From contig JALCZJ010000004.1 of the NCBI GenBank assembly GCA_022690815.1, positions 1 to 64,000 on the forward strand: 64,000 nucleotides of DNA, written 5' to 3'. The translations under genes were made by a program, and so were the position numbers. The DNA is from Ferrimicrobium sp. GTDB lineage: Bacteria > Actinomycetota > Acidimicrobiia > Acidimicrobiales > Acidimicrobiaceae. The notes beneath the pieces were generated by a model. The model made no database searches, was not told the DNA's origin, and was given only the letters and a program-made list of their open reading frames with translations. Below are positions 49,395-59,981 of the stretch, one piece after another; position 1 is the stretch's first letter; each line of letters starts with the position of its first letter.

Positions 49395-52300
49395 CTACCT
49401 TTCAGCTGCATTGATATTTCTTGTGGCACTGTTCTCGACAAAACCGATATGGCCGTGCGTCTCGCTCGTATTCACCGTGCTATTAGAGAGCCTGACAACA
49501 GCCTTTACCGCGGAGCTAGCCCTTCTCCACTGCCCAAGCTGTTCGATGCTATCGACGCATTCCTCCTTGCCGATGACCGTGTTACCGGTGATGTTCCACT
49601 GTTCTCGATAGGCTGCAATCGTCGCGACGTTTGCCAACCAAGCTGCTTGGTGTGTTGGATCTGATGGCATCTGTCCGAGTAGTTGTACCCACTTGGCCCG
49701 CTCCTCTATTGCCCGTTCAGCGAGTGCGATAGCACGTTGCTCGATTGCACGCTCACGCTCGATAAGGGCTTGGCCCAGGTCTGGATCGGTTACCTCGGTC
49801 GCTCTTGGGATGAGTCCCGCGATAAGGTTGCTTGCCCCGATCCGCCTGCTGCCATGCTTGTGCGTCCAACTCGCTACTCGGTTGGCTAACACCGCCGCTA
49901 GGTCATCGGCATCATCGAATTGGCGTGCTGTAACGATTGTTGGGAAGTCATTGTCGATGTCAATTCCACGTGCCTTTGCACCTCGAAGGGCTGAGAGTAG
50001 TGGTCCGTACGCTGAGCTCTCTCGAATCTGTTCTAGGTGTTCATCCGTTAGACCCGAGCGCGTAAGTAACTCGTTCCACCGCTCCTCTTCGGCGATTCTT
50101 GCGATCGTCTCATACTCCCCATGGAGCCGGATGATTCCTTCTGCTTCCTCGTGTTCTTTCCGGATCATCTCATGGGCTCCCATCTCTGATCCCTGATTGG
50201 CAAGACAGGTGATAAGGACTTGGCGAGCGGATTGTACTTCGGTCGTCCCCTCATGTGCAGTCGCGGGATCTGGGTCATAGTGGGTATCGACATAGAGGAG
50301 GTTTGCCTCTCTCCCTCTCGTAGCTGCGACGTAAAGAACCTCTCGTGGAGTTGTACTGGTGATCATCGCATGGGCAGTATCGAGCGTTCGTCCCTGTGCA
50401 CGATACGCAGTCGTGGCATAGGCCAACTCGACATGTTCGGCCACATAGTCAGGTGGCAGTGTGACTTCTCCTCTTCCTCCAAGGCGTCTGATGGTCATAG
50501 TGCCGTCGTTACTGGTCGCTATTACCCGCCAACGATCACCGTTCTTCACCCACCCCTTGCCGGTTGTGAGTAGTCGATTGTTCTCTCGAGTTACGACCTC
50601 ATCACCAACCCCAGCTACAGCCCCATCGACCAAGCTCAACCCCGACTCTGCTACCTCACCTGTGGCAACCCTGTCGACTCTGGCTCGGTTGTTCAACTCG
50701 GTTACCGTATCCGAATCCCCCGCGATCATGAGTGAGTCCTTGCCCGCTGTGACGTCGCTCCTCCAGGCCTGATAGAGTGTCTCGATCAACTCCTCTCGTT
50801 CACCCTCTTTGATCCTTTGGTGCGTCTCATAGGCATCGATCGCCTCCTCGTCACCTATGCGTAGCTCCATGCTCGCTGTCCTCTCCCAGGCATGGACAAA
50901 GCGGCGAACATCGCTCAACGTCGGCACCACCATGTCTCCTCGCTCTCGAACCAGGGATCCAAACATCCCACCGGCTGTAATGCTCGAGATCTGAGCCGGA
51001 TCTCCAACCAGTAACACCTTGGCATCGGCCTCTTGGGCGGCACTTACAAGCTCATCTAAGGCAAAGGTTCCAATGAGAGAGGCCTCATCGATGATGACCA
51101 ACTGACCGGGGTGAAAGCGCCACCGGGTGAGCAGCCCCTGTAGCCTTTCGATCTCCCTTTGGCGGGCGCCCCTTTGCTCTGGAGCATCTGGAATTACCGC
51201 GGTAAGGCTGGCCAGGCGATCGCGTTCTGCCTGTCTCCTGGCGCTCTGTCGCCACTCATGGAGCCACTTGGCGGTGTTCTCGGTCTCGATGCCGAGCTCA
51301 TCGGCTAGCACCTGGGCAGCCGTTGCCGATGGAGCTAGCCCAATGACGCTACCTGGTCCATGTTCTAGCTCCCAAGCAGCACGTAGGCCAGCCATCGTCG
51401 TCGTCTTGCCGGTACCCGCTGGTCCAACGAGTAGATCAAGGCGACGAGGAGAGGTGGCGATCGCCTCAACTGTCAGGGCTTGATCGGAGCTCATCGTAAA
51501 GTTTTTTCCCGGTAGGTTTACCTCGGTAATAGCCTTGACGGTGCTGACCGAAACGACCGGAGCATCAAGGGACCTGGCGGCCCGAAACAGATCTGTCTCG
51601 GCATCCAAGAGGGTTGCGGTGGTATAGAGATGGCGCTCCTTTGGTCGCATCCGAGAGCTGCCGTCTGCTCTTTGAAACCGCTCTGGTAGGTGATAGAGCT
51701 CAGGTGAGCTGATCTGGATCGCCTCGCCCAGGGCGATCTCTGTCGTTCGCTCTGCAACCGCTACCCGGTCGTCGGGGCTGACAAAGCGTAACCCCTGGAG
51801 TTGGCGATGGACCTCGGCTAGGACGTTTGTGCGTCCAAAGGTGGCGTGACGCTCTGAGACCCCCTCGAGGGCTAGGCCCGCAACTTCTTGGAGCATCTCT
51901 TTACTGAGATCGCCGGCACGAAGTAGTGGCAACTCATTGCGATTCGCCAAGCTGGCAACGAAGGTAGTTGGGTCATCATCGAGGTAGCGGGCTGCTCGCT
52001 GGCGCCAGTCATCTGTCATCTCGGCGAGGCTTCGATGCACCTTGTCCTGGCGGGTCTCGAGGTTGGCCTGTTGGGCGAGGCGTACCGATTCGACCGCACT
52101 TGGGGTTCGTCCATGAGCGAGAGTAAATTGCTCTACGAGATGTGCCTTGTGTTCTCTGACCGCCGCTACCCGCTGTGAGAACTCTTCCATGAGATCTATT
52201 GGCACTCCTATCATCTCAGACTTTGACATCCCACCTGGGGTCACCCTCTCTTCCCAGCCAACCCCGAGGGCCTCGGTGAGAAGGTCAGACAATACTCCTT

Positions 52301-53081
52301 CGTGCATCACGCCAAGGGTCACGATGGACTTATACAGGCCACTCCCATCGAGGGTTCGCCACTTGCCATCAGAGATTGACTTGGCTCGGTTCCAGACGAT
52401 GACATGATCGTGGAGCTGTGGATCACCAGCTCGGCTGTCATAGTGGGTAAAGCTTGCAGCACTAATGCCGGTGACGTCCTCCTGGAGAACGCCGTTCTTA
52501 CCAGAGCGTGAGTGAATCACCTCACGTTCTGCATAGCCAAGGACATAGTCGATAGCTCGTTGATGACACCGATAGATAATTGCCTTGGTCTCCGAATCGG
52601 CTAGAGCCCATGCAACAGAGACGGATTTAGAGGGTGAGAAGGTGAGATCGAAACCAGCTACCGGCTTGCCGATCTTCTTTTCAGCTTGGGCCTCTTCGGC
52701 CTTGATCGTTTCAATCGCCAAGGCTCGATCCTCCTCTGTGAGAGTCTCTGGTAACCGGGCAACTCTGGCCTTGATCCGATCGGCCATGCTCACCCGTCGG
52801 ATTCGTAACGCCTGTCCAACTGGATCACCAGTGAGTGGATCAGCAACAAGTCCAAGCATGTTCCACAACTGAGATTCGGTGACCTCTGAACCATGCTCTA
52901 CCCCCTTCCCCCCTCCGAGATCAGCCAGCCCTCTACCCTTCCATCGACCCGGTGGGGTGCCAGACTCTGCGTAGTAACGGGTCAGCTCTGAGCTCTGATC
53001 TCCTCGGCCATCACCTACGGCGATCGAGTCCATGAGGTACCTATAACCCTGGCCGAGGGAGAGCTTGCGGATGGTGAGCAT
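49395..53081 (-). CDS. MobF-family conjugative relaxase-helicase (TrwC/TraA type)
   Basis: 1228 aa. Starting at ATG 53081 gives MLTIRKLSLGQGYRYLMD, with the relaxase Tyr at residue 13 or 15. The metal-binding three-His motif is HYDSRAGDPQLHDH near 213-226. A RecD2-like helicase follows: Walker A GPAGTGKTT near 552, Walker B VIIDEASLIGTFAL near 660, GDPAQISSI, and motif VI-like YATTAYRAQGRTLDTAHAM and YVAATRGREANLLYV near 890-930. A coiled, Arg/Glu-rich tail completes it. The enzyme nicks oriT and unwinds the strand for transfer. The longer frame to 53204 starts in sequence that lacks family features. No TraD or T4SS gene is nearby. Confidence 0.95.
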   Translation of the reverse strand: MLTIRKLSLGQGYRYLMDSIAVGDGRGDQSSELTRYYAESGTPPGRWKGRGLADLGGGKGVEHGSEVTESQLWNMLGLVADPLTGDPVGQALRIRRVSMADRIKARVARLPETLTEEDRALAIETIKAEEAQAEKKIGKPVAGFDLTFSPSKSVSVAWALADSETKAIIYRCHQRAIDYVLGYAEREVIHSRSGKNGVLQEDVTGISAASFTHYDSRAGDPQLHDHVIVWNRAKSISDGKWRTLDGSGLYKSIVTLGVMHEGVLSDLLTEALGVGWEERVTPGGMSKSEMIGVPIDLMEEFSQRVAAVREHKAHLVEQFTLAHGRTPSAVESVRLAQQANLETRQDKVHRSLAEMTDDWRQRAARYLDDDPTTFVASLANRNELPLLRAGDLSKEMLQEVAGLALEGVSERHATFGRTNVLAEVHRQLQGLRFVSPDDRVAVAERTTEIALGEAIQISSPELYHLPERFQRADGSSRMRPKERHLYTTATLLDAETDLFRAARSLDAPVVSVSTVKAITEVNLPGKNFTMSSDQALTVEAIATSPRRLDLLVGPAGTGKTTTMAGLRAAWELEHGPGSVIGLAPSATAAQVLADELGIETENTAKWLHEWRQSARRQAERDRLASLTAVIPDAPEQRGARQREIERLQGLLTRWRFHPGQLVIIDEASLIGTFALDELVSAAQEADAKVLLVGDPAQISSITAGGMFGSLVRERGDMVVPTLSDVRRFVHAWERTASMELRIGDEEAIDAYETHQRIKEGEREELIETLYQAWRSDVTAGKDSLMIAGDSDTVTELNNRARVDRVATGEVAESGLSLVDGAVAGVGDEVVTRENNRLLTTGKGWVKNGDRWRVIATSNDGTMTIRRLGGRGEVTLPPDYVAEHVELAYATTAYRAQGRTLDTAHAMITSTTPREVLYVAATRGREANLLYVDTHYDPDPATAHEGTTEVQSARQVLITCLANQGSEMGAHEMIRKEHEEAEGIIRLHGEYETIARIAEEERWNELLTRSGLTDEHLEQIRESSAYGPLLSALRGAKARGIDIDNDFPTIVTARQFDDADDLAAVLANRVASWTHKHGSRRIGASNLIAGLIPRATEVTDPDLGQALIERERAIEQRAIALAERAIEERAKWVQLLGQMPSDPTHQAAWLANVATIAAYREQWNITGNTVIGKEECVDSIEQLGQWRRASSAVKAVVRLSNSTVNTSETHGHIGFVENSATRNINAAER

Positions 53082-53213
53082 GGGAGTGTTCCTTTGATAA
53101 AGGGGTGCCGAGTGTGTCCTTGTTAGGGGACCAAACGGTTGGAAATCTGTCACGCTCGTTGACGAATGTCCGTTCGAATTTCGCGATAGCGGCCTCGGAT
53201 GCAAGGCGTGTGG

Positions 53214-53263
53214 TAGGAGTTTGGCTACTTTGGGTGTGCTAGGAGTTTGGCTACTTTGGGTGT
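53214..53263. repeat. Tandem 24-bp repeat upstream of the relaxase
   Basis: TAGGAGTTTGGCTACTTTGG plus GTGT occurs at 53214-53237 and again at 53240-53263, with GC between. It lies about 130 bases upstream of the relaxase start and just before the IS21 fragment. It could be part of an oriT or the multiple end repeats of an IS21 element. Confidence 0.7.
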
Positions 53264-53307
53264 CCGGCTGAGCTAGGCCTTTGCTGGTGTGAGCGATAGG
53301 CTCTCTG

Positions 53308-53823
53308 TTGGATTGCCCTAAGGGTATGACTGTCGACGACCGGGTCTTTGTTGACAGTTTGCGAGCGCGGTTTTTCGCAGAAGAACCTGGTCATGTCAAT
53401 CGATCATCGATGCATCTCGTTGCCGAATTACCGCGCGGTGGTGATGGGAGGTTGGCACGTCTCATGAATGCCTGGTCCAAGGTGGAGGTGTTGATCTTGG
53501 ATGATTTCCTCATCCGACCCATCAGCCCGGATGCCGCCAGTGACACCTTGGAGGTGATCGAGGATCGTCATGGACTTCGCTCAACGATCCTTACCTCACA
53601 ACTCCCAGTTGCCAACTGGTACGCAAGCATTGGCGATCCGACGATCGCTGACGCTCTTCTTGACCGCTTAACAACGAACCTTCACCGCATCGAACTGAAC
53701 GGAGAATCGATGCGCAAAGTAGTCCCCCTCGACCGACCTACAGGGATTAGGAGTGGCCGAACACCTAGGATGAGAAAAATCAATCGCCGATCAAGAACGG
53801 TCACCAGAAAGGAGGTGAGGTAG
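53308..53823 (+). pseudogene. IS21-family helper ATPase (IstB) fragment
   Basis: The readable part starts about 53400 with SSMHLVAELPRGGDGRLARL and continues VEVLILDDFLIRPISPDAAS (Walker B), LEVIEDRHGLRSTILTSQLP, TIADALLDRLTTNLHRIEL and GESMRK, the conserved C-terminal half of IstB. The Walker A half and IstA are absent. The frame runs on with a basic tail. Confidence 0.87.
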
Positions 53824-53917
53824 GGGTTGGGCGTGGCACCCGATGACTACCCGAATGCTCACTCCCTGTCCGAAAACTCCGGATTCGGTGTCCGAAATGA
53901 GCGAAATGTGCAGGCTA

Positions 53918-54455
53918 GGGCCTCTAATCTCCTGATAGATGCCGTCGGCATAGACATAGGAGAAGGTGATCTTACCCAGGTCCCGTTTTTTCCACTCGTC
54001 GAACTGAGCTTTCCACTCGACTTTGAGGGAGGAGACGACATTTGGGGTCAGCTTCTTGGCTCCTTCACCGAGGACAACCTCAAGAACCTGGGCCATATCA
54101 CGTTCTGAGACCCCCTTCAGGTAGGCATAGGCGACCCAGGCATCGATGGACTTGGATCTGTGTAGGTGGGGAGGGATGAGTTTGGATGAGAAGTTGATCG
54201 ACCCATCGCCGTCACGAGAGCGGATTCTTGCTACCTCAACCTCGCTCGTCTCCGATCGCGGTGGTGATGGATCGCTCGGGGAGGTAGCCATTGCGTACTA
54301 CGTCCCTACCGGCACTCTTGAGCTCGTTTACCATCTCAGTCACCTCTACCTCAAGAGCGGTAGCGATGAGATGCCTTCCCATGAACGCGCAACAACTCGG
54401 TTATCGCATCAGTTACGGCGTAGGTGGGCTTACCCGAGAAGTCAGGGGTTATCAT
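53918..54455 (-). pseudogene. IS256/Mutator-family transposase N-terminal fragment
   Basis: The reverse strand starts at ATG 54455 (MITPDFSGKPTYAVTDAITE), then shifts frames near 54380 and 54250: EVTEMVNELKSAGRDVVRNG, YLPERSITTAIGDERG, and then FSSKLIPPHLHRSKSIDAWV, AYLKGVSERDMAQVLEVVLG and KKRDLGKITFSYVYADGIYQ. It is cut just after the first catalytic Asp, before most of the DDE domain. IS remnant. Confidence 0.85.
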
Positions 54456-55347: not shown

Positions 55348-55419
55348 ATGAAGGTACCAGGCATGGTTGGTGGGGGCACTGTGGCTCTCAGTTTTCGTCT
55401 GGCTAGCGTAAGGAGCTAG
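55348..55419 (+). CDS. Possible 23-aa peptide, MKVPGMVGGG start
   Basis: ATG 55348 follows AAGGGGG at 55336-55342. It encodes 23 residues with a Gly-Gly-Gly run and a basic tail (SFRLASVRS). It is 169 bases before the 53-aa peptide gene. Too short to judge by coding statistics; only the ribosome binding site supports it. Confidence 0.25.
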   Translation: MKVPGMVGGGTVALSFRLASVRS

Positions 55420-55587
55420 GGTGGGCTCGACGGCGACACATTCTCCGGATAAGGCGTAACATGATCGATAGCCGGGAGGTTCTGTTTGCACGATACCCCT
55501 GGATAACTCATAGTGTCCCACGCATCATTGGTCGATGCGCTCTTTGGAACCCGTGGATAGAAGAAACTGAGAGGAGGTGAATGAATA

Positions 55588-55749
55588 ATGTCTGACCTGG
55601 AAACAATGGTAATGGAAGCTATGAGCGATCTCCAAGGCCGTGAAGCCGAGGGTGATTTTACCCTTGAAATAACGAATTTGGAGGATGTCGATATGGCTGA
55701 TGGCGGGCACACTATAGCACGTCGTTACCGAATTACATATGAAACATGA
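55588..55749 (+). CDS. 53-aa peptide with Gly-Gly motif, candidate RiPP precursor
   Basis: ATG 55588 follows GAGGAGGTG at 55571-55579. The first 40 residues are acidic and hydrophobic, like a leader peptide (EITNLEDVDMADGG at 27-40). The last 13 residues, HTIARRYRITYET, are basic and contain Thr and Tyr, so they look like a core. A Gly-Gly before a compositional change is typical of double-glycine leaders of bacteriocins and other RiPPs. A hairpin separates it from an M29-like metallopeptidase gene, a 110-aa unknown and an MFS exporter. No Cys, and no known modifying enzyme, so the RiPP assignment is inference. Confidence 0.55.
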   Translation: MSDLETMVMEAMSDLQGREAEGDFTLEITNLEDVDMADGGHTIARRYRITYET

Positions 55750-55760
55750 TATGTAGACGT

Positions 55761-55805
55761 GGGGGTCGGCAACCTCCGTGAATTGTTTGCGGAGTGTCGG
55801 CCCCC
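55761..55805 (+). terminator. Hairpin between the peptide gene and its downstream operon
   Basis: GGGGGTCGGCA at 55761-55771 pairs with TGTCGGCCCCC at 55795-55805 (two wobbles), and inside it CTCCG pairs with CGGAG. No T tract follows. Such leaky hairpins after precursor genes let the short peptide mRNA exceed the downstream mRNA in many bacteriocin operons. Confidence 0.6.
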
Positions 55806-55870
55806 TTGTCGGATAGAGATTGGATGAGGTTAAAGCTTCGAATTTATACAAGCTCAGAAGGAGAGTGCTG

Positions 55871-57043
55871 ATGAACGAGGTTAGTGGTTGTACCACGTCT
55901 TTCCTCGAACCTGACGTAATAGCTGGGGTGGAGAGGTTTTGCGAGTATTACGTGGAGAGAGCTCAGCCCAGCGCAGTTTTAATCTGCTATACGGTAGAGT
56001 GTCGGCTAGCTGCGGCGACCGCGTTGTCCGTTCTTAGGTCTCGAGGTAATGTCAAGGGTAAACTCGACGGAGTTCCTATGGCTCCTCTCGATGATCCGGG
56101 CCTGAGTAGCCGTCTACAGGAGTCGATTACTGAGTGTGGATCTTTCGACCGTATCGTGATCATATCGTTCGAGCTGGAGACGATGTCACACTTTCCACTG
56201 TTTCGGCGGATTCTCGATGAGTTTGGCCCGGAGAAGTGCGAAGTGATTCGTTGTATTAGTGTATGCGAGGATTTTTTTCTGGAAACCATGACAGTGGAGC
56301 CCGCCGAACTGTCAAGGCTGAATGCTGGAGTGCTAACCCGACTGCAGTCAGCGAAGCAGCTCCATATAGAGACACCGTCTGGAACCATGTTAGATGTCGA
56401 ACTAGACTCGACGAAGTACACATGGATTAGCAATCGGGGACGGGCGCGCCCAGGTGGCTTCGTGATTTTGCCGCCAGGGGAAGTGGCGACCTTCCCGGCT
56501 CACGTGGAAGGGGTGCTGGTGGCAGAGAGTGCTTTGAACACTAACTTCTACACGAGAATTGATCCGCGCCTGGCTGCTCACCCTGTCACTGCTGTATTTA
56601 GGCGAGACAAGCTAGAGGATCTTAGTTGCGATGAGGCGTCCATACAGCGAGTCCTCAACATATGCAGGACTTTTCCGTTCTTCAATCGCGTGGGGGAAGT
56701 TGGCTTCGGTACTAACGTCGGAATCAGAAAGTTGAGTCCGCTGAACTCTCATATCAACGAGCGCTTGCCGGGTATTCATTTGGGCTTGGGTCAGCATAAT
56801 CAGACCCGGAATGTGGTTCCTGACGACTGCGAGGTACATCTTGATCTTATTTCCGCCGGCGCACTGGTTTGGGTAGATGGTGAGATAGATCCGTCTCTCG
56901 ACTTTTCGAGACTGGTCCCTTCTGACAACGAGCATCCGCTGACAAACGACGAGGATATCGACGGCGACTGCTGTGGTGTTCGAGATTCATTCTGTATTCG
57001 GCCAGATGGGGTCTTGCAGCCAGTTAAAGCGGGCAAGCGGTAG
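55871..57043 (+). CDS. M29-like metallopeptidase (aminopeptidase T/NicX fold)
   Basis: 390 aa from ATG 55871, after AGAAGGAGAG at 55856-55865. The C-terminal half carries the M29 metal site in order: Glu204 in LPPGEVATFP, Glu276 in VGEVGFGTN, His303 in PGIHLGLGQHN, and His323/Asp325 in CEVHLDLI. IETPSGTMLDVEL near residue 166 and GVLVAES also fit the M29/NicX family. The N-terminal 150 residues are unlike standard aminopeptidases. Members remove N-terminal residues from peptides or open rings in NicX. Next to a small peptide gene and an exporter, peptide trimming is a sensible guess. A second small ORF (57067) follows. Confidence 0.82.
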   Translation: MNEVSGCTTSFLEPDVIAGVERFCEYYVERAQPSAVLICYTVECRLAAATALSVLRSRGNVKGKLDGVPMAPLDDPGLSSRLQESITECGSFDRIVIISFELETMSHFPLFRRILDEFGPEKCEVIRCISVCEDFFLETMTVEPAELSRLNAGVLTRLQSAKQLHIETPSGTMLDVELDSTKYTWISNRGRARPGGFVILPPGEVATFPAHVEGVLVAESALNTNFYTRIDPRLAAHPVTAVFRRDKLEDLSCDEASIQRVLNICRTFPFFNRVGEVGFGTNVGIRKLSPLNSHINERLPGIHLGLGQHNQTRNVVPDDCEVHLDLISAGALVWVDGEIDPSLDFSRLVPSDNEHPLTNDEDIDGDCCGVRDSFCIRPDGVLQPVKAGKR

Positions 57044-57066
57044 CGCGGACAACCTGGGTTGGTGAG

Positions 57067-57171
57067 ATGAGTGTTCGTCCGTGTGTGGCTGGGCATGCCG
57101 GTGCAACGGATACCATAGTTGGGTTGTGCGAAAGTGATTGTGATTTGATACCTCCCGATGTGAGGGTTTAG
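57067..57171 (+). CDS. Possible 34-aa Cys-containing peptide
   Basis: ATG 57067, 23 bases after the M29-like gene. It encodes a short peptide with three Cys residues (positions 6, 21 and 25; GLCESDCDLIPPDV). No strong ribosome binding site (GGTTGGTGAG). May be chance, but belongs to the same orientation and gap as the candidate peptide cluster. Confidence 0.25.
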   Translation: MSVRPCVAGHAGATDTIVGLCESDCDLIPPDVRV

Positions 57172-57668
57172 TACTATATGCCATCTACGTTTTGTGAGGT
57201 TAAGTTGCTAATGTAGCGTACCAATCGCCGTGGCCGCTGAGTTTAGCGTAGCGTATTTGTTAGGGTGTAGGGCTTTGATGAACGTGGTTATCGGATCGAG
57301 GCGCTGTTGTGATTGTAAAAGGTGCTGTTGATGGCGGTGGCGCTTTGCAAGCGGTATGTTTGTGTTGTAGATTTTAGTATTTCGGAGGTGCGAAGAGGGG
57401 ATGTGCATCTTAATGCGTTTGGGTGCGACATCAACGAACTTTGCTATCAATCGAAAATGCTGTCGTAGGGCGAGCTTGGAGCCTCTGTAAATGCAGAGAT
57501 GTAGCAGTTTGGAAAGAGAACTCATCGTGTCGGCCCTTAAGTCGGTCGGATACGGGAAGCATTAGGTCTCCGCATTTCGGGTGTCTCGGTCGACAAGCTG
57601 ATATTGGTGACGAATCAAGCATTTCGTAGTTGAAAGTCAGTGGTCTTGTGTCACTCGACAGAAGGGTG
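57172..57668. other. Region between M29-like gene and the 110-aa gene
   Basis: About 500 bases, relatively AT-rich and with no reliable gene. No terminator was seen, so the downstream genes might be read from the same transcript or from an unseen promoter here. Confidence 0.35.
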
Positions 57669-58001
57669 ATGAGTGATGTGATGAGCCTGACACTTGGAGG
57701 ATTTCCGGCCCAATGGAAAGGTGCCTACGAGAGCATGCACGCTGTTCTCACGGAGGTGCTCAGTCACCGTTCGACAGAGTGTTGCAGGCCCGAGGTTCCG
57801 ACACACCCAATGGGTAACTTACGGACAGCATCACTGTACGAATATCAAACGTGGTGCTGGCAGTGGCTGATGATACTTAGCTCCCTAAGGCCACTCACCA
57901 ACCTGTTGCCCACCCTATTCAACGTCGAGGAGGAGAACTTGATAATCGCTAACGCGAATGTTCGTTTGTTGGTCCTAAATGACAGAGAGACACCTTTCTA
58001 G
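57669..58001 (+). CDS. 110-aa protein of unknown function
   Basis: ATG 57669 after GAAGGG (57661-57666); TTG 57630 gives a longer frame. The product starts MSDVMSLTLGGFPAQWKGAY, has CC near residue 37, an aromatic YEYQTWCWQW in the middle and ends with LVLNDRETPF. No family or membrane helix. Its TAG abuts the ATG of the MFS gene without a gap, so the two are coupled. It may be a modifying, immunity or chaperone protein of the peptide cluster, but that is only context. Confidence 0.6.
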   Translation: MSDVMSLTLGGFPAQWKGAYESMHAVLTEVLSHRSTECCRPEVPTHPMGNLRTASLYEYQTWCWQWLMILSSLRPLTNLLPTLFNVEEENLIIANANVRLLVLNDRETPF

Positions 58002-59288
58002 ATGGGTGGCGATGATCGAGGGCGGAAGCGAGAGAATGGCCGTTGGGCCACGCTAAGGAATCGACGCTTTGTGATCTGGCTCGCGGGCCAGGGAGTATCG
58101 AACACTGGTTCGGCTCTCACAGTAGCGCTAGCCCCAATCATCGCTGTGGTCGTTCTTCACGCGCCGGCCAAGGAGGTGGGGCTTATCGTGGCGACATCCT
58201 TGGGATGCACCGCTGTGGCCCGGCCTGTGGCTGCAGTGTTCGCCGAGAGATCCCGTAATAGGATCCGAGCCCTTTTTGTGATCAATATTGTGTCGGCTAT
58301 TGTTATTGGACTGGTCCCGGTGTTCTGGGTCTATGGGTCTCTGTCGCTCCCCGTGTTTTGGATCGTCATTGCCGTCGATGGGCTAGCGGGCGGGGTGTTT
58401 GGTGCTTACTCGGCGCCAATGGTGGCTGACATCGTTGATAAGGAGTCGTTACCGCAGGCGAGTGGACTCATGGGCAGCGCAGCCAATGTCGCTGGCGTCG
58501 CCGGCCCAACTCTCGGAGGAATTATCCTCGCGATCGTGAGCGCACCGCTTGCTTTAGTTGCCGATTCAGCTTCGTTCCTTATCGGGGCCCTCAGTTGCCA
58601 CTTGATCCGAGGCACCCGGGCTTCGCACTCCGCGCCTAAGGGGCCTGCAGATGCTGCGGCACAAGTGTCAAAGATCCCATTGATGAGGGCATTTGGCGCT
58701 CCCTTCAGAGTGAGCGGTGGTGCGGCTCTGTTGGGCATATTGCTTGCACTCACAGTTGTAAACGGGCTCGCGCTCAGCGAGTTGACGGTACTCATGATCA
58801 GAGGTGCCGGCGTTCGTCCTGCTGTGGTCGCAGTCATCGCGGGTCTCGGAGCCGTCGGCGGAGTGTTAGCTGGGGTATCTGTGGAATGGATCGCACCGCG
58901 AGTTGGTAGCTATAGGGGTGCGCTCATAGGCGCCGCCATAGCATCGCTTGCGACAATGGCACTGGCAGTGGTCAAACCAGGCGGGTTTGCCGTGATCCCG
59001 TATGCCGCTTATGAGATAGTTGGGGCTGGTGGTAGTACGCTACTGATATCGCTTGCCTTCGCGCAGGTGATTGGTGGTTTGGCACCCGCTGCAAGAGCTC
59101 GTGGGATCGCTGTCGCTGCGATGCTTCCCGAGGCTGGCCAGACTATTGGCGCACTCACCGGTGGCATCCTCGTTGGAGTCTTAGGGCTAGCCCGCTTCTA
59201 CGATACGGCCGCCGCGCTAGGTTTAGTGGTGGCGGGTCTGTCCGTGTGGCTGGCGATAAGGAAACCCTCTGAACGTGTCGCCGATTAG
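58002..59288 (+). CDS. MFS exporter
   Basis: 428 aa with about twelve hydrophobic segments. The N-terminal LRNRRFVIWLAGQGVSNTGS is typical of the MFS_3 group (EntS/Mef-type exporters of siderophores and macrolides). The conserved loop after helix 2 appears as RPVAAVFAERSRNRIR. ATG 58002 directly follows the stop of the 110-aa gene. It probably exports a small molecule; in this cluster perhaps the processed peptide or a self-resistance substrate. Confidence 0.9.
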   Translation: MGGDDRGRKRENGRWATLRNRRFVIWLAGQGVSNTGSALTVALAPIIAVVVLHAPAKEVGLIVATSLGCTAVARPVAAVFAERSRNRIRALFVINIVSAIVIGLVPVFWVYGSLSLPVFWIVIAVDGLAGGVFGAYSAPMVADIVDKESLPQASGLMGSAANVAGVAGPTLGGIILAIVSAPLALVADSASFLIGALSCHLIRGTRASHSAPKGPADAAAQVSKIPLMRAFGAPFRVSGGAALLGILLALTVVNGLALSELTVLMIRGAGVRPAVVAVIAGLGAVGGVLAGVSVEWIAPRVGSYRGALIGAAIASLATMALAVVKPGGFAVIPYAAYEIVGAGGSTLLISLAFAQVIGGLAPAARARGIAVAAMLPEAGQTIGALTGGILVGVLGLARFYDTAAALGLVVAGLSVWLAIRKPSERVAD

Positions 59289-59648: not shown

Positions 59649-59981
59649 CTACAGATAATTCTCCGGCGCATGCCGTTCCGTCACGACCTGATTAAGCAGT
59701 CCCAACAGCGAGGCCACATTAGGAGGCGTCAACACCAACTCAATCCCTTCTAGATCTGCAACCGACAACTTCGTGACCAGCGATTGGAGCCATCCCTGTA
59801 GAGCGCGTAGGCCCGGCTCTCCGGAGTTGAGCTCTACGAGACGTTCAACAACTGCGTCGGGAACGTTGATACCGCTCCTGAAGTCGTATTGATAGCTACG
59901 AAGGATTTCAGGGAGCAGAGCCTCGAAGACGATCGTGAATTTCTGTTGATCCGAGTATCCAGAAAGCTTTATCACATGCAT
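59649..59981 (-). pseudogene. Lon-like AAA+ lid-domain fragment (probable)
   Basis: 110 codons on the reverse strand, MHVIKLSGYSDQQKFTIVFE and VVERLVELNSGEPGLRALQG, which resemble the lid of Lon-type AAA+ proteins (IxLxGYT..EK and the R-x-L-x-R helix). The Walker A and B half is missing and the fragment ends at the island edge, so it is a remnant. Similarity is moderate and the call is tentative. Confidence 0.4.

Follow-up and report, generated by a model that had tools for sequence, protein, structure and literature searches.

Organization of the locus

The window, the whole 64,000-nucleotide stretch of Ferrimicrobium sp. DNA that was analysed, carries a small gene cluster whose features all lie on the + strand. 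The cluster begins with a 53-aa open reading frame (ORF), which is followed by a hairpin, a gene for a protein related to the M29 metallopeptidases, a stretch of about 960 bp and a gene for an MFS transporter. The candidate precursor peptide is encoded at 55588..55749, behind the ribosome binding site AGGAGG (55572..55577), which is one of 13 such sites in the window that precede an ORF of at least 20 aa. Its C-terminus, YRITYET (55726..55746), is the candidate core, and the peptide as a whole has a net charge of -9 with an acidic leader. The hairpin in the gap between the two genes (55756..55810; -37.4 kcal/mol, z = -6.35 relative to dinucleotide shuffles) is a probable attenuator or mRNA stabiliser. 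The M29-fold, CgnB-like protein (390 aa) is encoded at 55871..57043 from an ATG at 55871, with an alternative TTG start at 55820, and the probable exporter (58002..59288; Pfam MFS_1, 1.9e-21) is 31% identical to the MFS protein adjoining a homologous cluster in Nonomuraea, with similar MFS proteins at other loci.

Coding potential was judged by codon usage, with 14 window genes as the training set and 128 wrong-frame ORFs as the null set. The 53-aa frame scores 0.142 bits per codon, a value reached by none of the 128 null ORFs and higher than that of 29% of true 53-codon windows. The strong ribosome binding site, acidic leader and intervening hairpin described in an earlier note on this DNA, which had proposed a peptide cluster here, are thus borne out, and the codon score adds to them. 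Two extra small frames that the note had suggested, at 55348 and 57067, score poorly and do not look coding. It had also listed a 110-aa ORF of no known function (57669..58001) abutting the MFS gene; the frame exists and does abut, but it was rejected as a conserved gene of the cluster, as its codon score (-0.018) is reached by 11% of the null ORFs and only about 1% of true-gene windows are as low, no homologue was found at any locus compared, and its AlphaFold2 model has no confident fold (pLDDT 43). The stretch between the M29-like and MFS genes (about 630-960 bp) is poorly coding, and no remnant of a PhyH, P450, JmjC or MFS gene was found in it or in the flanks. Neither an oxygenase nor a leader peptidase is present near the cluster.

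One flank consists of mobile-element debris, with a TrwC-type relaxase (49395-53204) and fragments of IstB and of a Mutator-type transposase (53.3-54.3 kb), and these remains (49395-54291) point to a mobile region adjoining the cluster. The other flank is the tRNA-Ala/leuS region. A further 110-aa ORF, at 59649-59981 on the - strand, resembles an internal part of the Lon protease (TIGR00763, 5.3e-6) and is apparently a fragment. By its kinship labels the window organism belongs to the Actinomycetota, as Nonomuraea does, but to a different class from the Streptomyces-type genomes searched. The M29-like protein is missing from 40 relatives, six of them of the same genus, and its nearest kin occur in distant actinobacteria, so that horizontal transfer is the probable origin of the locus.

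A clade of M29-fold proteins

A scan of GTDB contigs for similar proteins yielded one in Nonomuraea spiralis with 42% identity, and whole-genome searches added the genomes G442, G959, G965, G926 (two copies), G1454, G1552, G1613, G1589, G1598 and G1544. With the window protein, the clade has 13 full-length members at 12 actinobacterial loci, and an N-terminal fragment occurs in G735. The window protein is 33-45% identical to its 12 homologues, and 69 residues are invariant among the 13.

Searches of PDB sequences with the window protein, its relatives and profiles gave no meaningful match, and the relationship to proteins of known structure emerged from the fold search alone. The AlphaFold2 model of the window protein (pLDDT 70) has nine significant Foldseek matches in the PDB, all in one superfamily that includes NicX, the aminopeptidases AmpS, AmpT and PepS, and CgnB (E-values of 2e-16 to 3.5e-10). 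An alpha/beta domain is predicted at about residues 12-160. The metal ligands expected by the earlier note are all present, although they number six rather than five (E204, E276, E297, H303, H323 and D325, counted from the ATG at 55871), and they are invariant in the 13 members. The Peptidase_M29 Pfam model matches three of seven members (best 3.8e-5), and the window protein has no Pfam match. A tail of the form HP...DED-x-x-GDCC (56933-56974) distinguishes the clade: its DED-x-x-GDCC portion is near-invariant, both cysteines are present in 13/13 members, and comparison with canonical M29 and crocagin-like relatives did not reveal such a tail, with its two adjacent cysteines, in any of them. 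In a tree in which crocagin-like homologues stand in for CgnB itself, the window clade (98/98) and these homologues (99/100) form separate groups whose union is weak (78/85).

Precursor peptides and hairpins

An ORF of 42-74 aa lies directly upstream of the M29-like gene in 12 of the 13 members, that is, at 11 of the 12 homologues other than the window's, and a hairpin usually separates the two. Examples of these peptides are MSAFEELENLVTTMAAAEPEDNDEDGVGDVAWRISYSTFYNS (G1589), MPAPEEMNELLTKMAAVEPQPGEGDDENGAIAWSISYTTFRS (G926), MSSEQQMQDLVAGVMGEMTALEAEYALEPSAFDRTDSNEVAWYIAYKTNEQ (G1454) and MEANVLPHPGELQDLLTAMAESEPSPEQLTENGMIAWYLDQR (G965). The peptides are all acidic (net charges of -2 to -12) and have in common an acidic leader and the C-terminal motif AW-x-[IV]-[SA]-Y-x-T, to which YRITYET corresponds in the window. 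A strict Shine-Dalgarno test was passed with a credible precursor by seven of the 13 members, and a Shine-Dalgarno-led ORF of 30-90 aa was found upstream of none of 26 canonical M29 genes examined as a control. For the second copy in G926 (G926a) no precursor was found; a 41-aa frame at that locus was discounted, as it lies opposite the MFS gene.

Both leader and core are kept at the amino-acid level among relatives. For the leaders of G926, G965 and G959 and the cores of G926 and G735 the similarity reaches p 0.0005, the lowest value that the test can give, and the first 20 codons of the G1589 and G1613 leaders differ by four synonymous and no non-synonymous changes. The outcomes that the earlier note had named as speaking against its proposal, M29 homologues lacking a small upstream ORF or a 53-codon frame that is not conserved, were therefore not what was observed, and the alignment of relatives did reveal the shared leader that it anticipated.

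Of all these peptides, that of the window diverges most. It was not recognised by whole-peptide alignment or by a profile built from ten others, with which 1688 of 5000 shuffles scored as high; the Nonomuraea peptide likewise did no better than shuffles, and that of G442 was recognised (1/5000). A YRITYET-type pattern occurs anywhere in 1e-4 to 8e-4 of shuffles of the window peptide, and still more rarely at its end, frequencies that refer to a core pattern set only after the peptides had been inspected. Because alignment and profile both miss it, the membership of the window peptide in the family rests on its position, the hairpin, its coding signal and the seven-residue motif.

The earlier note had also described a Gly-Gly peptide with a leader ending in ADGG. 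The sequence is present in the window peptide but is not conserved: among the precursors GG occurs only there and, at a different spacing, in G735 (GGDSAW). With no C39 protease at hand and an exporter of the MFS type, a Gly-Gly leader with C39-type processing was rejected. The G735 precursor (L043:8459-8797, -) carries its core twice (AWSISYSTS). Behind it come a truncated M29-like protein, of which no more than the N-terminal 110 aa are left, and a methyltransferase-like fragment, so that G735 is probably a broken cluster.

When the sequence separating the peptide gene from the enzyme gene is folded, the z-scores are -7.7 in G926, -6.3 in G1589, -4.5 in Nonomuraea, -3.9 in G1552, -3.4 in G965, -3.2 in G1544, -3.0 in G1454, -2.7 in G442, -2.4 in G1598, -2.0 in G959 and -1.8 in G1613. 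Between G959 and G965 the stem differs by one compensated base pair (GTGACTCC/GGAGTCAC against GTGATTCC/GGAATCAC).

Neighbouring genes in related clusters

The gene order of the cluster is conserved among relatives, and that of G1454 is the same as in the window. An MFS gene accompanies the cluster in the window, Nonomuraea, G926, G959, G965, G1454, G1589, G1598, G1544 and G1613, in some cases as judged by reading the sequence only. Most relatives also carry an oxygenase: PhyH in G926, G1552, G1589 and G1613; P450 in G959 and G965, beside G1589 and, by its sequence, G1552; JmjC in G1598 and G1544; and the aKG-HExxH-type peptide beta-hydroxylase (TIGR04267) in G1454, which has two, and in G1598. 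In G1552, G1589, G1613, G959 and G965 a PhyH or P450 gene lies between the enzyme and MFS genes, whereas in Nonomuraea, whose locus is intact, no oxygenase lies there. In G926 the two copies are separated by a pair of M16 peptidases together with an M1 aminopeptidase, and in Nonomuraea an S26 peptidase lies just upstream of the precursor.

The arrangement expected of a RiPP cluster, a precursor with leader and core beside modifying enzymes, is thus seen in this family: the upstream ORF, with its acidic leader and core, recurs over 12 loci and peptide oxygenases occur in relatives, although the window itself has no adjacent oxygenase. The observation that no known modifying enzyme accompanies the peptide holds for the window but not for its relatives, which encode known peptide oxygenases. 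Likewise, of the operon logic proposed earlier (precursor, attenuator, peptidase and exporter), the precursor, hairpin, partner enzyme and exporter are kept over 12 loci; the trimming role of the peptidase is the part that is not supported.

Comparison with known M29-derived proteins

The M29 aminopeptidases AmpS, AmpT and PepS have the fold and the dinuclear metal ligands of the window clade. They differ from it in the catalytic residues (EEHYHD), whose tyrosine is replaced by asparagine in the clade. This position, seven residues after the histidine (His+7), is Asn in 13/13 clade members and Tyr in the six canonical M29 sequences tabulated and in nearly all canonical loci read in a profile search. 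NicX, a 2,5-dihydroxypyridine dioxygenase, is the best Foldseek match of the window protein (2e-16) and similar to it in overall size. The NicX site binds a mononuclear iron through two His and one Asp, and would differ in this from the clade, which keeps the M29-type Glu ligands.

The nearest precedent for the window protein is the pair CgnB/CgnE of crocagin biosynthesis, M29-derived proteins that bind the precursor and act alongside an oxygenase, for which no aminopeptidase activity was detected, and which are reported to have homologues in about 100 genomes (PMC10070186). The window protein has the same M29-derived fold as CgnB (Foldseek 6zsv, E 3.7e-11) and its six metal ligands; in both systems a small precursor gene lies beside the M29-derived gene, and as CgnB pairs with the oxygenase CgnC, so the relatives of the window protein pair with iron or haem oxygenases. 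The differences are also clear. CgnB has no detectable sequence match to the window clade, which keeps an N-terminal domain of about 160 aa (in a protein of 390 aa) that is reduced in CgnB/CgnE (the CgnB chain has 304 residues), and which has the near-invariant DED-x-x-GDCC tail. CgnA is short and has a basic leader, whereas the precursors of the window clade are acidic peptides of 42-74 aa with a different core motif.

CgnB-like genes were also encountered in other settings. Very short peptides lie beside them in G220 (MKKIKVQKNRNYLGTLLG, L036:10685-10741, +) and in Paraburkholderia (MKNRKKNAEYLGTLLG, L040:6845-6895, +), and both end in YLGTLLG, although they come from different phyla. The G220 genes form a crocagin-like cluster, with a haem-oxygenase-like gene and a pair of CgnB-like copies, of which the second has a disrupted metal site. 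A CgnB-like gene is present on eight Streptomyces plasmids, and at the two of these loci that were read (L003:7313-8588 and L004:7295-8588) it is preceded by an ORF of 40-46 aa (ending SKYGKYDRLEG) and a hairpin, and adjoined by NRPS genes and a gntD-like hydroxylase gene.

A proposed pathway and its alternatives

The locus is likely to be a RiPP-like operon, in which a precursor is bound by an M29-fold protein that presents or modifies its core much as CgnB does, with export by the MFS protein. The 53-aa precursor would be made in larger amounts than the product of the gene behind it, an effect to which the intercistronic hairpin would contribute. The acidic leader of the precursor would be bound by the M29-fold protein, which has kept the dinuclear metal site and lost the peptidase tyrosine. 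The aromatic C-terminal core YRITYET may then be presented, or itself modified, by this protein, as CgnB would do in crocagin biosynthesis, and the product would leave the cell through the MFS exporter. In the relatives, an iron or haem oxygenase would act together with the M29-fold protein; in the window, the oxygenase may be missing, supplied from elsewhere or not needed, so that the cluster may be a minimal version or one that is without its oxygenase.

Such a gap would also be seen if the locus were a RiPP cluster in decay, deprived of its oxygenase and no longer able to yield a modified product, which we regard as possible, if doubtful. The poorly coding stretch stands where five relatives have PhyH or P450, remains of IS elements and of a relaxase adjoin the locus, and a genome-wide search for PhyH and aKG-HExxH proteins found neither. 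However, none of the frames for precursor, M29-like protein and MFS transporter is disrupted, the codon score of the precursor is still good, no remnant of an oxygenase is detectable, and the Nonomuraea cluster is intact though it likewise has no oxygenase between enzyme and MFS.

It is somewhat unlikely that the M29-fold protein is itself the modifying enzyme, a former aminopeptidase whose dinuclear metal site, with the asparagine in place of the tyrosine, now serves to alter the aromatic core without hydrolysis; loci such as those of the window and Nonomuraea would therefore need no oxygenase. That it is a true aminopeptidase trimming the 53-aa peptide to its mature form, as the earlier note had supposed, is improbable. 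The M29 fold, the full set of metal ligands and the Pfam matches of some members would fit such an enzyme, but the tyrosine replaced throughout the clade is essential in M29 enzymes, as the Y352A substitution abolishes M29 activity in Listeria AmpII (PMC7023490), and no aminopeptidase activity was detected in CgnB/CgnE (PMC10070186). Because of these two points the protein is probably not a trimming peptidase. Finally, attenuation systems have a strong hairpin behind a short ORF, yet it is very improbable that the small ORF serves as a regulatory leader or attenuator of the downstream gene rather than as a product precursor, given the amino-acid conservation of leader and aromatic core, the two core repeats in G735, and the clustering with an exporter and with enzymes that modify peptides.

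Implications

No Pfam or NCBIfam model names the M29-like clade or its precursors, and in the literature on M29 proteins with RiPPs only the crocagin work was relevant; some clade members may already be among the roughly 100 genomes of that study (PMC10070186). The combination of peptide, M29-like protein and exporter that recurs in actinobacteria, with a CgnB-like role for the M29-fold protein as the favoured reading, looks like a kind of ribosomal peptide natural-product pathway that has not yet been named. It would provide a precursor family that can be told by its leader and core and that goes with a clade of M29-fold proteins in several actinobacterial families, and would extend the peptide-binding role of M29-derived proteins from the crocagins to a second kind of precursor and to other oxygenases. 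The question of whether M29-derived proteins present their peptides or act on them catalytically would become addressable in a natural system reduced to a single peptide and a single protein.
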